From assembly GCA_944323695.1 (NCBI GenBank), contig CALUTI010000008.1, positions 1 to 64,000 of the forward strand: a stretch of 64,000 nt of DNA, written 5' to 3'. Made by a program: the position numbers and the translations under genes. A model generated the notes under the pieces. That model ran no database searches. It worked only from the letters and a program-made list of their open reading frames with translations, and was not told where the DNA came from. Within the stretch, counting starts at the first letter, position 1, and the number at the start of each line of letters is the position of its first letter. This stretch comes from Candidatus Gastranaerophilales bacterium. Lineage in GTDB: Bacteria > Cyanobacteriota > Vampirovibrionia > Gastranaerophilales > Gastranaerophilaceae. Below are positions 163 through 11,819 of this stretch, piece by piece.

Positions 163-369
163 CTATTTAAGTCTAACGTTAACAGAAGTACCTTTTTTAG
201 AAATTTCAACTTTATCTTCTCTGGCTAACCAGCCAAGACCTAAGTCTGCAAAGTTTCCTTTAAGATCTAATTCTTTTTTCATTTTTGAGAATGAAGATTC
301 GCCGTTGTTATTTAAGTAGTCATAAATCTGTCCAGCTGAAAATCCGATTTGTTCTTGTAATTGTTGCAT
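163..369 (-). CDS. Small winged helix-turn-helix protein (DUF2582-like)
   Basis: A 68-residue basic protein. Its helix-rich N-terminal half (QEQIGFSAGQIYDYLNN) and following helix (KMKKELDL) lead into a short beta wing (KVEISKKGTSVNVRLK). This is the layout of the stand-alone winged-helix family PF10771/DUF2582, whose role is unknown and presumed DNA-binding. The start is set by GGAGGT six bases before the ATG. It is monocistronic, with a promoter at 417-445 and a terminator at 113-147, and is divergent from the helicase gene. Family placement is from recalled sequence pattern, not a search. Confidence 0.7.
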   Translation of the reverse strand: MQQLQEQIGFSAGQIYDYLNNNGESSFSKMKKELDLKGNFADLGLGWLAREDKVEISKKGTSVNVRLK

Positions 370-445: not shown

Positions 446-510
446 TAGTGTATCAGCATTAGTTTTTTAGAATAATTTTATGATAAAATACATTATAGGG
501 GGTATTGATT

Positions 511-3500
511 TTGATTATTGAAGGGACAATAAGTTCTGAAAAGACAAATATATTAATCTCAAAATATGCAGAGCTTTTGAATTCAGGCATTCCTGCATCA
601 GAGATTTTAGTGTTGGTTCAAAATTCAACCCTGAAAAACAATTTTGTAGACAAAACACTTGAAAAATTAACTGTTGATTCAATAGAAAAACTTCAGGTGT
701 ATTCGTTTTTCGGATTGGTATATAACACGGTTTCCGACAACTGGGCTTTTTTGGAAAACCGGAACACTTTTGACAATCCGGTTATTCTCCCGAACCTTGC
801 GGGGCTTGAAATTTCACAATTTATATTAAAAGATATTTTAAAAGAAATTCCGTTTAAGGGGTATAATTCAAAAAAATCACTGCTTCACCAGCTTTTCAGA
901 AGATATTCTTTGATTGTGCAAAATAATCTTTCAGAAAGCGAAATTGAAGAACGCTCAAAAATTTTAGGCGAAACTTTTGCAGATGATGCAAGAATTGCTT
1001 TAAAAAAACTTTTGGCGAAAACTCTTGCGTTAAGAGATTTTGACTACCTTCGCCAGACGCTCGTTTTCAATTTTATCTGTAAAAACACTGATTATTTCGG
1101 AAAAATTAAATATTTAATACTTGATGACGGTGATGAAATCACACCGGTTTGCTTTGATTTTATAAGCTATCTGGCGCCGCAGCTAAAGGATGTTTTTATT
1201 GCATTTGATAAACAGGGGGCAAGCCGCAGCGGATATTTAAGTGCGGATAAAAATGCCGTCTGGGGATTTGAAGAATTATTCAAACAAAAAGCTGTGCCGG
1301 TTGAAACTTTAACGCCGCTTAAAATTGATGCGCAAACTTTATTTGATAACGTAATCAATGATGACAATCAAAAATTAAAACATTTCGTTGTACAGTCACC
1401 TTCCAAAAGAGCCAAAATGATTGATCTGGTTCTTGAAAAAATCGAAGAACTACAGAAAAAAAACGTAAAACCCTGCGAAATTTCAATTATTACCCCAATT
1501 ATAGATGATATGCTGAAATTTTCGCTTAAAGAAAATGTCAAAGCTGATTTGATGTTTTTGTCGGGAAGTGAAAAACTGGTTCAAAACAGGCTTGTGCAGG
1601 CGGCTTTAACAATTTTAAAAATGAATACTCCGCTTAAAGAAACCTTGACGGAATTTGATATAAGGGTTTTGCTGTCTGAGTTTTTAGGGATTCAGATAAA
1701 ATACTGCCGTGAGATTTTGAAAACTTTTGAGGAGACAAAATCTTTGCCGGAATATGACTTTGGCGACGAAATTTTTAATGAAAAATATACCGGTCTTATG
1801 AAGCTTATTGATAAATTGTCTGTCTCGGATTTGAAACTTTCGGAACAGGTTTGCGAAATTTATCAGGAAGTTATGCATTTTACCTCAATTAATCCTGATG
1901 AGATTAACAAATTTAACTTTTTTGTGAAGCAATTGAGGGATTTTGAAAATATCTTCGGCGATGAATTTGAAAAACGCAAGACCGACATTATTATTCAGAT
2001 AGAGAATTCAATAATTGCGGAAAACCCGTATTCCACACTTGAAATCCGGCCGTCAAATCTTGTTGTTGCAACTCCGCAAAAGATTATTGATAATCAAATA
2101 AGGACAAAATATCAATTCTGGCTTGACATTTCAAGTGACGAATGGGTTAAAAGCGACACAGGACCTTTATACAACGCATGGGTATTCCAAAAAGGCTGGG
2201 ACAAAGATTCCTACACAATTGAAGATAATATAAATTTAAGCAAAGACAAAACCGCAAGAATTTTGAGGAAATTGACACTTTGCGCGGATGAAGGGATTTT
2301 TGCATATTCAAGCCTTTTTGACGGAAACGGGGTTGAAAACTTTGGCGGAATAGAAAGTTATCTGAACTTTGAAACGGGAAATGTCCCTTTGCAAAATGTC
2401 AAACCAATTATTCCGCGTCCCGACCAGGCGCCGGTTTTGGAATACAAATCGGGCAAAATGGCGATTTCCGCAGTACCCGGCGCCGGTAAAACCACAATAT
2501 TGTTGGCGTTAATTTTAAAACTTCTTGATAACGGCATAAATCCGGAACACATTTTCGTCTTGACTTATATGGAATCAGCCGCAAGAAACTTCCGCGAAAG
2601 AATTAAAAATATCCGGCAAAACTCCAGCCAGCTGCCTAATATAAGCACAATTCACGGACTTGCACTAAGAATTTTGAAAGAAAACGGGAATTTTGAACGC
2701 TTAGGCTTGAGTTCTGATTTTGAAATTTGCGACGACACCCAGCGCTCAAGAATTATTCGTACAATCTCTGACAAATTAAAACTAAAAAAAACTGAAACTG
2801 ATGATTTTGACCGTGCAGTATCGGTTTTCAAACTTGGAGAAGGCATTTTATCAGGTGGTCAGACAGATGCCAAAATCAGAAAATTTACGGAATTTTTCAA
2901 TAATTATCAAGAAGCTTTGAGGTCTCAAAATCTGATTGATTACGACGATATGCTGATTTCGTCCGTAAAACTTTTGAGAGACAATCCGGATATTTTGAAC
3001 CATTATCAGGAGGTTTGTGAATATATTATAGAAGATGAAGCGCAGGATTCATCAGCAATTCAGCAGGAATTGATAGGACTTTTAAGCGGTAAGCATAAGA
3101 ATTTAATCAGATGCGGAGATATTAATCAGGCAATTACAACAACTTTTTCCAACGCAGATGTTGAAGGTTTCAGAAAATTTATCGCAGAAAGTCAGGACGT
3201 CAGCATGAATTGTTCCCAAAGATGCACAAAAGATGTCTGGACACTTGCAAATAATCTGGTTAATTTTGCAGAAACAAAACCGGAAACTCAAGGCGCTTTT
3301 TACAAAATTTTTATGCAGCCCGTTGAGGGGAAAAATCCCGTTCAGGAAAATGCCGTTAAGGGAGAAATATTTTCCGCACCGCTTGAGGAACGGAATTACG
3401 TTTTGAAAATTATCAAAAATACTTTTAAACAAAACCCAAAAGCTACAGTCGGAATTCTTTTGAGAAATAATTTTCAGGTTGCGCAGTGGCTTAATTTCAT

Positions 3501-4362
3501 CAATGACAGCGGGCTAAAAAGTATTACAAGAAGCGAAAGTCTTGAGCAAAAATCCATTTTTAAAACCATTTTTGCGATTTTGAAAATGATACTTAACCCC
3601 TTTGATAACGGAATTATTGCTGATAATTACGAAATCCTGGCAGAAATGGGATTTTATAAACCGCGACTCGGAACCGATATAAGAAACTTTGAAAAGCCTT
3701 TTGTCGAAACTGATTGCGACAGCATAGAAAATCCTGCACTTGTTCAATTCCACTGGGATTTGAATTACTGGATTTCAATGCCGCATCTTCAGCCTGAGGA
3801 ATTAGCTATAAAAATAGGGCTTGCACATTTTAACAGTGAAATAGAAAAGTCCAATGTTTACCTGATTGCAACACTTATAAAAAGGTTAAGCACGGTAAAT
3901 AAAAACCTTGTGTACATAACCGAAAGGCTTGGCGAACTTGCTAAAAAGCCATCTCTCAGCGGGTTTAAGTTTTTCTCCGAAGAAGACGAAAGCAACCGCG
4001 AATTTTTGGAAGGGAAAGTCCAGATTATGACGCTGCACAAGTCTAAAGGTGATGAATTTGATCTGGTATTTTTACCCGAGATGGCAGAGAAAAATCTTAC
4101 GCTTGATTTTAATGAAATAAAACTGAAATCATCTGATTTTATGGAAAATATCAGACGGCTTAACCCGAAATACAAACCCAAAACCGAAGCCGATTTAAAA
4201 AAAGAACTTCTGGCAGAGAATTTAAGACTTTTGTATGTAGCAATTACCCGTGCCAAACGGAATTTATATATTACGGCAAGCCGCAAGGCAACAGCTTTCG
4301 GCAAAACAATTGACCAGCAGCCGAGCTTGATATTCTATGAATTAGAGGTGTGTGATGAATAA
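511..4362 (+). CDS. AddAB-type tandem UvrD-family helicase, one polypeptide
   Basis: Protein of ~1283 residues that appears to contain two SF1 helicase cores. The C-terminal one is intact: GAGKTT at ~657-662, DEAQD at ~842-846, a late TLHKSKGDEFD motif and ITRAKR at ~1245-1250. The N-terminal half shows eroded counterparts: GTISSEKT at residues 5-12 (Walker A with E for the second G) and LILDDGDE at ~202-209. In AddAB/RecBC the inactive helicase (AddB/RecC) and active helicase (AddA/RecB) are separate proteins, so this resembles a natural fusion of the two. The nuclease is encoded by the overlapping next gene. Expected role: double-strand break processing. TTG at 511 is preferred over TTG at 505 because AGGGGG at 497-502 is well spaced only for 511. 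Confidence 0.75.
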   Translation: MIIEGTISSEKTNILISKYAELLNSGIPASEILVLVQNSTLKNNFVDKTLEKLTVDSIEKLQVYSFFGLVYNTVSDNWAFLENRNTFDNPVILPNLAGLEISQFILKDILKEIPFKGYNSKKSLLHQLFRRYSLIVQNNLSESEIEERSKILGETFADDARIALKKLLAKTLALRDFDYLRQTLVFNFICKNTDYFGKIKYLILDDGDEITPVCFDFISYLAPQLKDVFIAFDKQGASRSGYLSADKNAVWGFEELFKQKAVPVETLTPLKIDAQTLFDNVINDDNQKLKHFVVQSPSKRAKMIDLVLEKIEELQKKNVKPCEISIITPIIDDMLKFSLKENVKADLMFLSGSEKLVQNRLVQAALTILKMNTPLKETLTEFDIRVLLSEFLGIQIKYCREILKTFEETKSLPEYDFGDEIFNEKYTGLMKLIDKLSVSDLKLSEQVCEIYQEVMHFTSINPDEINKFNFFVKQLRDFENIFGDEFEKRKTDIIIQIENSIIAENPYSTLEIRPSNLVVATPQKIIDNQIRTKYQFWLDISSDEWVKSDTGPLYNAWVFQKGWDKDSYTIEDNINLSKDKTARILRKLTLCADEGIFAYSSLFDGNGVENFGGIESYLNFETGNVPLQNVKPIIPRPDQAPVLEYKSGKMAISAVPGAGKTTILLALILKLLDNGINPEHIFVLTYMESAARNFRERIKNIRQNSSQLPNISTIHGLALRILKENGNFERLGLSSDFEICDDTQRSRIIRTISDKLKLKKTETDDFDRAVSVFKLGEGILSGGQTDAKIRKFTEFFNNYQEALRSQNLIDYDDMLISSVKLLRDNPDILNHYQEVCEYIIEDEAQDSSAIQQELIGLLSGKHKNLIRCGDINQAITTTFSNADVEGFRKFIAESQDVSMNCSQRCTKDVWTLANNLVNFAETKPETQGAFYKIFMQPVEGKNPVQENAVKGEIFSAPLEERNYVLKIIKNTFKQNPKATVGILLRNNFQVAQWLNFINDSGLKSITRSESLEQKSIFKTIFAILKMILNPFDNGIIADNYEILAEMGFYKPRLGTDIRNFEKPFVETDCDSIENPALVQFHWDLNYWISMPHLQPEELAIKIGLAHFNSEIEKSNVYLIATLIKRLSTVNKNLVYITERLGELAKKPSLSGFKFFSEEDESNREFLEGKVQIMTLHKSKGDEFDLVFLPEMAEKNLTLDFNEIKLKSSDFMENIRRLNPKYKPKTEADLKKELLAENLRLLYVAITRAKRNLYITASRKATAFGKTIDQQPSLIFYELEVCDE

Positions 4363-4975
4363 TTTTTCTCCAAATATGTTGAAAACATTCAAAGAATGTC
4401 CGAAAAAATATTACTATAAATATATAGAAAAAATTTCAGTACCGCAAAAATCAACACCGTTTGAAAAAGGTAAAAAAGTCCACGCGCTTGCAAATTATTA
4501 TCTTAAAGGCGAGGATATTTCAAAACTTGAAAAAGTTCTGACACCCGATGAAGCACACGCATGGAATCTTTTAAAATCAAATGAATATTTTCAAAAAACT
4601 TACGTAAATTCCGAATATAATCTTTCCTGCAAAATCGGAGATTTTTGGGTAGGCGGACGAATTGATGCCCTTGTAAAAGATGGCGACGACTACTATATTC
4701 TGGATTATAAAACCGGTGCCGTCCCGCAGGATCCCGAACATGATTATCAAACAATTGTCTATCTTCTTGCTGTATCTAAATTCTTAAAAACCTGCAACAG
4801 CTTGACATTTGTCTATATTGATTTAAAAAATAACATGAATCACAAAATTAAATTTAATAAAAAAGATGAGTATGAAACAGAGTTATTGAAAATCTGCACA
4901 CAAATAACCGATATGCAAAACTTTCCGTCAAATACAAACAGATGCAAATATTGTGAGTACAACAAATTTTGCTAA
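4355..4975 (+). CDS. PD-(D/E)XK nuclease with predicted Fe-S cluster (RecB/Cas4-like)
   Basis: 206-residue nuclease. The core shows H43, D104 in GGRIDAL, and D117-x-K119 in ILDYKTG, the PD-(D/E)XK signature of the RecB/AddB/Cas4 group. One cysteine near the N-terminus (C15) and three at the end (C197, C200, C206, in CKYCEYNKFC) match the arrangement that holds a 4Fe-4S cluster in AddB and Cas4. It overlaps the helicase gene by 8 bases, so the two are surely co-translated and probably form one complex. ATG 4355, after GAGGTG, is preferred to the in-frame GTG at 4352. No cas genes or CRISPR repeats are nearby, so a Cas4 role is unlikely. Confidence 0.8.
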   Translation: MNNFSPNMLKTFKECPKKYYYKYIEKISVPQKSTPFEKGKKVHALANYYLKGEDISKLEKVLTPDEAHAWNLLKSNEYFQKTYVNSEYNLSCKIGDFWVGGRIDALVKDGDDYYILDYKTGAVPQDPEHDYQTIVYLLAVSKFLKTCNSLTFVYIDLKNNMNHKIKFNKKDEYETELLKICTQITDMQNFPSNTNRCKYCEYNKFC

Positions 4976-11003: not shown

Positions 11004-11819
11004 TTAATACCACGGGTAGTCATCTTTAATCTGCCAGTTGTCAATAAATATAAGCTGACCGCAAAATTGTGATCCGCTGTCGGTTTTGCAAGTATTCAAA
11101 AGAGCTGTCCTATCCGTATCAGAACCCATCATGGAAAATTTCTTTTCTACAACATCAAACTGCATATAAAACAAATCTTTACCCACAGTATTAGGCTTAT
11201 TAAATCCGTTCACATCAACTAAAAATACAATATTTCCGAACTTACGTGCTATACAACTGCCGTCATCATCATATTCAGTGCATCGACCACTAAAAGCAAC
11301 ATTGACATACACATTATTAGAAAGTAAAAACATATATCCCTGATTATTATAATATTTACCGGATATAGGAGTATACCTGCCATCATAACCTATAGCAGAA
11401 CCTGTTGTATAACCAAAATCTTTTGCCACTTTCATATACGGCAGCAAATATTTCTGAGAAAAATCCGTTAGTTTTTCCTCTTTTGGAAAATTCGGATCAA
11501 GAGCATCGCCGCCTCTTATACCTGAGACATCCCAAGTTGATGTATCACCATGCTCAACCTGTGCCATTGTTAAGGCTTGCGACAATATTGAATATGCTTG
11601 TTTTAATTTTACCAAAGTCTGTTTTTTCTGGTAATTTGCAACAAGTGTCGGGATTGTCATTGCCGCAACTATTCCGATTATTCCAAGAGTAATTAACACC
11701 TCCGCTAAAGTAAAGGCAGCATGTTTTGAAAAACCATTCCTCGCCCCTTGTGGGCGAGGAAAAAGCTTTTTGTCATTCCGAACTCGGTTCGGAATCTCTT
11801 GTTGGGCAAGTATGCCCAA
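11004..11819 (-). CDS. Prepilin-like protein, start frameshifted by a G9 tract
   Basis: The C-terminal ~235 residues are a type IV pilin/pseudopilin: [15 protein letters not shown] followed by one hydrophobic helix and a soluble domain with cysteines. A proper promoter (TTGCCA-17-TATAAT), AAGGAG and ATG (12052) lie upstream in a different frame. The only in-frame start is TTG at 11819, without a ribosome binding site. The ATG reading passes a run of nine Gs (12017-12025) and soon meets a stop. With ten Gs it would join this frame with no stop over ~350 codons. The extra region encodes hairpin repeats. So this copy is either phase-off, miscounted at the homopolymer, or decayed. Confidence 0.7.
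   Translation of the reverse strand: MGILAQQEIPNRVRNDKKLFPRPQGARNGFSKHAAFTLAEVLITLGIIGIVAAMTIPTLVANYQKKQTLVKLKQAYSILSQALTMAQVEHGDTSTWDVSGIRGGDALDPNFPKEEKLTDFSQKYLLPYMKVAKDFGYTTGSAIGYDGRYTPISGKYYNNQGYMFLLSNNVYVNVAFSGRCTEYDDDGSCIARKFGNIVFLVDVNGFNKPNTVGKDLFYMQFDVVEKKFSMMGSDTDRTALLNTCKTDSGSQFCGQLIFIDNWQIKDDYPWY

Follow-up and report, generated by a model that had tools for sequence, protein, structure and literature searches.

A fused two-module helicase and its adjoining nuclease in Gastranaerophilales: a probable DNA end-resection pair with separate helicase counterparts in cyanobacteria

The window, i.e. the whole 64,000-nucleotide stretch of DNA analysed here, is the start of a contig and encodes a single helicase chain in which two UvrD-type modules are joined, the first predicted to be degenerate and the second apparently intact. 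A small Fe-S nuclease is encoded by the adjoining gene. This pair is probably the helicase-nuclease that resects DNA double-strand ends in Gastranaerophilales, similar in plan to AddAB, AdnAB and RecBCD but assembled from other genes. By sequence and tree comparisons, both helicase halves have cyanobacterial orthologs that stand alone. A distinct end-resection machine of the RecBCD/AddAB type is proposed, encoded by three genes in cyanobacteria and fused in Gastranaerophilales. Literature searches on fused AddAB, on end resection in cyanobacteria and on repair in Melainabacteria brought up no description of this system.

The gene pair and its modules

The coordinates of the features are collected in Table 1. 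The open reading frame of the helicase extends from 505 to 4362 on the forward strand, and TTG 511 is its likely start codon, giving 1283 amino acids, because a GGGGG Shine-Dalgarno-like run lies about 8 bases upstream. The nuclease (206-207 amino acids) starts at ATG 4355 or at GTG 4352. The ATG produces an overlap of 8 bases with the 3' end of the helicase gene, exactly as an earlier note on this DNA had described for a Cys4 PD-(D/E)XK nuclease occupying its own small gene. A gene for a small winged-helix protein is transcribed divergently, about 140 bases upstream of the fused helicase gene, and its product is a possible regulator of the pair. The genes flanking the pair encode ribosomal proteins and are not defence genes. 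Elsewhere in the window (11004-11819, reverse strand), type IV pilin-like proteins with a recurring leader are encoded; they are repeated in the host genome, for example at L040:8640-9611.

Table 1. Features of the helicase-nuclease locus in the window
Feature	Position	Strand	Evidence
N-terminal half, residues 1-634: predicted degenerate UvrD-type SF1A helicase module	511..2412	+	AF2 model, Foldseek, VIA-align, cyanobacterial homologs
C-terminal half: apparently intact UvrD-type helicase	2413..4362	+	PF00580 E 1e-49, PF13361, ortholog alignment, tree
Stand-alone Cys4 PD-(D/E)XK (RecB/Cas4-family) nuclease	4355..4975	+	PF12705 E 7e-24, conserved residues, AF2 model
Small winged-helix gene (DUF2582), divergent	163..369	-	PF10771 E 1e-18; kept in 29/32 orthologous loci (tblastn)

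The C-terminal half carries the motifs AVPGAGKTT, IIEDEAQDSS, TLHKSKGDEFD and RLLYVAITRAK, and none of its helicase motifs varies among 30 orthologs. It matches the Pfam models UvrD-helicase at residues 641-893 and UvrD_C at residues 1160-1260. Judged by these motifs it is an intact SF1A helicase, in agreement with the earlier note. In a maximum-likelihood tree it forms one clade (support 100/99) with cyanobacterial helicases bearing the motif EDEAQDSS and with the helicase of a divergent genome (G035). This clade stands apart from PcrA, from AddA-type proteins, from the PHP-UvrD protein and from UvrD-nuclease chains of about 1020 amino acids. The scores against the NCBIfam addA models are 104 and 82 bits, where 708 and 861 would be required. 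In G035, the helicase gene overlaps by 14 bases a gene for a PD-(D/E)XK nuclease of 228 amino acids, and the gene corresponding to the N-terminal half is located elsewhere.

The N-terminal half retains a P-loop, GTISSEKT, in which Lys-Thr is kept and Gly is lost, a Walker-B-like LILDDGDE and a conserved motif QFWLDxSSxxW. Despite the missing Gly, every one of the 32 aligned N-terminal halves has this Lys-Thr; the P-loop is lost altogether in the genome of a sister family (G209). Sequence searches with residues 1-640 gave no match in Pfam, NCBIfam or PDB, and neither the fused protein nor its cyanobacterial N-half homologs matched the NCBIfam addB model at E 1 or below. An AlphaFold2 model built on a 32-sequence alignment (pLDDT 83, pTM 0.81) was compared with known structures. 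Foldseek retrieved UvrD at E 1e-17, and AdnB, AddB, AdnA, AddA, RecB and RecC at E 1e-9 to 1e-15. With VIA-align, the Z scores were about 28 for UvrD (424 residues, 3.0 A), 23.6 for AdnB (581 residues), 23.0 for AddA, 22.9 for AdnA, 21.7 for AddB (574 residues, 5.4 A) and 20.4 for RecB. The N-terminal half is thus predicted to be a complete but degenerate UvrD-type helicase fold, and the eroded helicase read in the earlier note from these same two motifs is borne out. This identity was resolved by the structure prediction together with cyanobacterial intermediates that match PF00580. AddB was considered as the nearest structural relative and dropped, since UvrD, AdnA, AdnB, AddA and AddB all score high.

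For the combined family profile of the N-terminal half, the C-half helicase family is the closest (6e-20), followed by the UvrD-nuclease chains, PcrA and AddA, these being small alignments. The profile gave no match to cyanobacterial AddB-like proteins (hhalign E 0.19, only 3 sequences). Profile comparison, which the earlier note had proposed against AddB and RecC, points to the partner helicase and not to these AddB-like proteins. The simplest reading is that a single SF1A helicase was duplicated and gave rise to the N-terminal half, a parallel to AddA/AddB.

The nuclease is a Cas4-like member of the PDDEXK_1 family, with cysteines at C16, C198, C201 and C207 and catalytic residues in LDYK. 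These cysteines, together with H44, D105, D118, K120 and Q133, vary little or not at all among 27 orthologs. Its AlphaFold2 model (pLDDT 92) is closest to the nuclease domain of AdnA (Z 16.9, 2.9 A, 203/207 residues), a similarity of fold only. The next matches are ACE1, a cyanobacterial Cas4-family protein (Z 16.0), the AddB nuclease (13.2), Cas4 (11-12) and RecB (9.5).

Conservation of the fusion in Gastranaerophilales

The close relatives of the locus belong to Candidatus Gastranaerophilales metagenome-assembled genomes (MAGs), from which 33 orthologous loci were collected. The full-length helicase frame is intact in 32 of them and frameshifted in one; the intact proteins measure 1266-1306 amino acids, plus one of 1481. 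The nuclease starts between -35 and +28 bases from the helicase stop in 28/32 loci. It lies 1.1 kb downstream of the helicase in L037 and upstream on the opposite strand in L035, and was not found within the sequence stretch taken around the helicase in L021 and L024. On a larger scale, the fusion is present in 129 of the 132 sampled genomes of the Gastranaerophilaceae-type family and in the sole sampled genome of the sister family (G209). The pair is single-copy, with shared neighbour genes across the family, and each part shows a dN/dS of about 0.05-0.15 (window against five orthologs), with dS near saturation. A chance event or an assembly artefact can be dismissed because the orthologous loci are intact in independent MAGs and because of this near-universal presence.

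The three family genomes that lack the fusion (G112, G280 and G285) each encode a UvrD-nuclease chain of 1019-1032 amino acids, which is their only PF12705 protein. This hints that the chain may replace the fused pair in these genomes. Single chains of this type, a UvrD helicase of about 1020 amino acids with a C-terminal Cys4 nuclease, occur in many Gastranaerophilaceae (L108:3186-6245, L109:5438-8515, L110:4288-7386, L111:3951-7022). A strict alternation of the two forms was considered and dropped, since many genomes have both. Insertions are also observed in the N-terminal half. In the MAG STE_97 (L037:4739-9184), a DUF559 domain (PF04480 E 4e-36) and repeat-like sequence are inserted in frame after residue ~288, and in G072, G183 and G227 reading frames of 1480-1580 amino acids are interrupted near residue 262-272.

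The host genome (1.73 Mb, 97.8% complete) was found to contain no separate addA, addB, recB or recC, a check that had been suggested for addA and addB in the earlier note. Its single PF12705 nuclease is the stand-alone gene of Table 1, and its UvrD-type genes are three: the fused helicase, a PcrA-like protein and a PHP-UvrD protein. RecC (PF04257) is absent from this genome and from the whole Gastranaerophilales sample. AddAB and RecBCD are regarded as undetected in the host on the basis of these counts. No RecD was seen with the fused system. The third UvrD-type gene, a PHP-domain/UvrD fusion, is a reading frame of 991 amino acids at L040:3023-5998.

Separate counterparts in cyanobacteria

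The N-half profile finds separate reading frames of about 650-800 amino acids in other genomes of the phylum. The cyanobacterial proteins, of about 700 amino acids, align with the N-terminal half along its whole length (hhalign E 1e-47), and the G-K-T of the P-loop is kept in 11/12 cyanobacterial rows of the alignment. They have no NCBIfam assignment and mostly none in Pfam; two of them reach the UvrD-helicase model (PF00580 E 5e-6 and 2e-8). The best cyanobacterial matches of the C-terminal half are helicases of about 780 amino acids with motif II EDEAQDS[S/T]. The two genes are separate and unlinked in cyanobacteria. In three families (L065, L066, L069), the cyanobacterial N-half gene adjoins the same divergently oriented gene of about 450 amino acids, which presumably resembles pcxA. 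The N-half homolog of one genome (G174, L068:6517-8571) is split into two reading frames of 331 and 349 amino acids.

The nuclease partner is the weakest link. Cyanobacterial nucleases of about 265 amino acids join the window nuclease in the tree only if it is rooted elsewhere (86/71), and many of them have lost some of the cluster cysteines. A firm orthology was abandoned in view of this weak tree support, and the PDDEXK_1 protein of about 265 amino acids is retained only tentatively as the cyanobacterial partner.

Strong matches were counted in 153 genomes of the phylum outside Vampirovibrionia. Of these genomes, 99 have the N-half gene, 100 have the EDEAQDSS helicase and 97 have both (exceptions 2 and 3). 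RecC is present in 40/153, and none of these 40 has a strong match to either helicase gene. The corresponding Fisher p of 3e-25 is confounded by relatedness and rests mainly on one family (f29), in which all 35 genomes have RecC and all 35 lack both helicase genes. The genomes of this family are small and would fit marine Prochlorococcus/Synechococcus, where recBCD has been reported (PMC5101192). Five RecC genomes of deep families (f6 and G044) have a divergent N-half-like reading frame, and the idea of a perfect exclusion between the N-half and RecC was given up for this reason. The two helicase genes are largely complementary to RecC in the phylum. Model cyanobacteria are reported to have no recB, recC or recD (PMC5101192), and no paper was found that names what resects broken DNA ends in them.

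Known systems, competing explanations and significance

Like AddAB (RexAB), the fused system has a Fe-S RecB-family nuclease in addition to two SF1A helicase modules, of which one is active and the other degenerate. In the AddAB gene order the degenerate module is encoded first, and the fused protein likewise has it first. Unlike AddAB, the helicase halves form one chain and belong to other sequence families than AddA and AddB, and a single unattached nuclease is found in place of two, each at a subunit C-terminus. AdnAB of mycobacteria also has two UvrD-like modules of unequal activity, and resembles the fused system in structure, both in the nuclease and in the N-terminal half (Z ~23 to AdnA and AdnB). 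In contrast to the fused helicases and free nuclease seen here, each of AdnA and AdnB is a chain of its own that carries a nuclease. RecBCD likewise places a scaffold with a dead helicase fold, RecC, next to a nuclease and an active SF1A motor, RecB, but the fused system has no RecC or RecB match. The fused system departs from the defining features of AddAB (clade, two nucleases, domain order), of AdnAB (two nuclease-bearing chains) and of RecBCD (RecC). Close counterparts are the cyanobacterial proteins, full-length homologs or orthologs of the two halves, even if their genes lie apart and the N-half protein keeps its P-loop. Adjacent helicase and nuclease genes are also known from Clostridiales operons, in which an unfused UvrD-like helicase beside a Cas4-like nuclease is thought to serve repair (PMC5704561); compared by description, no N-terminal dead helicase module is mentioned there.

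The earlier note had seen a rearranged AddAB. The parts and their different split hold good, and a true AddAB, with its AddB and AddA helicase halves fused and the AddB nuclease cut off as its own gene, would account for the inactive half coming first, the Fe-S nuclease, the lack of addAB elsewhere in the genome and the presence of AddB among the structural matches of the N-terminal half. This origin is nevertheless quite unlikely. The C-terminal half falls outside the AddA clade and no AddA-type nuclease tail is present, the N-terminal half has no AddB match by model or by profile (the latter against only 3 sequences), and the nuclease is nearer to that of AdnA than to that of AddB. In addition, one cyanobacterium (G080, L107:918-6799) has a compact pair of AddB-like (890 amino acids) and AddA-like (1079 amino acids) genes, far below the NCBIfam cut-offs, alongside separate N-half and EDEAQDSS helicase genes. 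The fused system is for this reason neither AddAB itself nor everywhere alone, and AddAB with re-split parts does not describe halves that have stand-alone cyanobacterial orthologs. It should rather be labelled a fused form of a separate helicase pair of the cyanobacterial phylum with a free nuclease.

A housekeeping role in another pathway (fork restart, Okazaki or RNA-DNA processing, Dna2-like) instead of end resection also appears unlikely. The C-terminal half and its cyanobacterial orthologs do match PcrA/Rep models and PcrA structures best. The system also occurs in some cyanobacteria beside AddA/AddB-like genes, and five genomes combine RecC with a divergent N-half-like frame. Against this, a separate PcrA is present in the host, the combination of a dead second helicase module with a RecB-family nuclease is the plan of AddAB, AdnAB and RecBCD, and the distribution is mostly complementary to RecC. 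The PADLOC GajB and Cas4 models match the helicase and the nuclease, and UvrD-Cas4 fusions have been linked to defence (PMC5704561), but an antiphage system of the Gabija or UvrD-Cas4 kind is very improbable for a near-universal, single-copy pair that has shared neighbours and lies beside ribosomal protein genes; a search with the seed patterns used brought up no relatives on viral contigs. The neighbour of the helicase is a PD-(D/E)XK nuclease and not a GajA OLD-family nuclease, and GajA matched neither protein among the PADLOC matches listed. As to a CRISPR Cas4, TIGR00372 gives 61.9 bits against a cut-off of 65, and the neighbouring reading frames are not cas genes.

The end-resection reading is preferred, and the fused system most likely works like AddAB, AdnAB and RecBCD because the parts match: an active motor, an inactive helicase module and a Fe-S nuclease. 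The C-terminal half would be the motor that unwinds the DNA end, moving 3'->5' on one strand. The role of the N-terminal half, a dead second module, would be that of AddB, RecC and AdnA: to hold the separated strand or to guide it. The small nuclease may dock in trans on the fused chain and trim the unwound strand or strands, leaving RecA with a 3' tail; loading of RecA and a Chi-like regulation may be expected by likeness to AddAB and AdnAB. The ancestral genes would be those still apart in oxygenic cyanobacteria, namely the ~700-residue N-half protein, the ~780-residue EDEAQDSS helicase and, tentatively, the ~265-residue nuclease. The two helicase genes would have fused in the gut lineage, after which the N-terminal half would have lost its P-loop.

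The fusion shows the motor, the scaffold and the nuclease distributed in another way. It also shows a dead helicase module with a P-loop that one lineage has preserved and that has decayed in another after fusion. It serves as a Rosetta stone that ties an unassigned cyanobacterial protein to a specific UvrD-like helicase, and this link opens the way to a direct test by knockout and pull-down in laboratory cyanobacteria. Tentatively, these genes could constitute a further class of bacterial end-resection machine beside RecBCD, AddAB and AdnAB, encoded by unlinked genes across RecBCD-less cyanobacteria and recognisable only through the helicase fusion and adjoining nuclease of their gut relatives. 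If so, they would explain how broken DNA ends are processed in most cyanobacteria.
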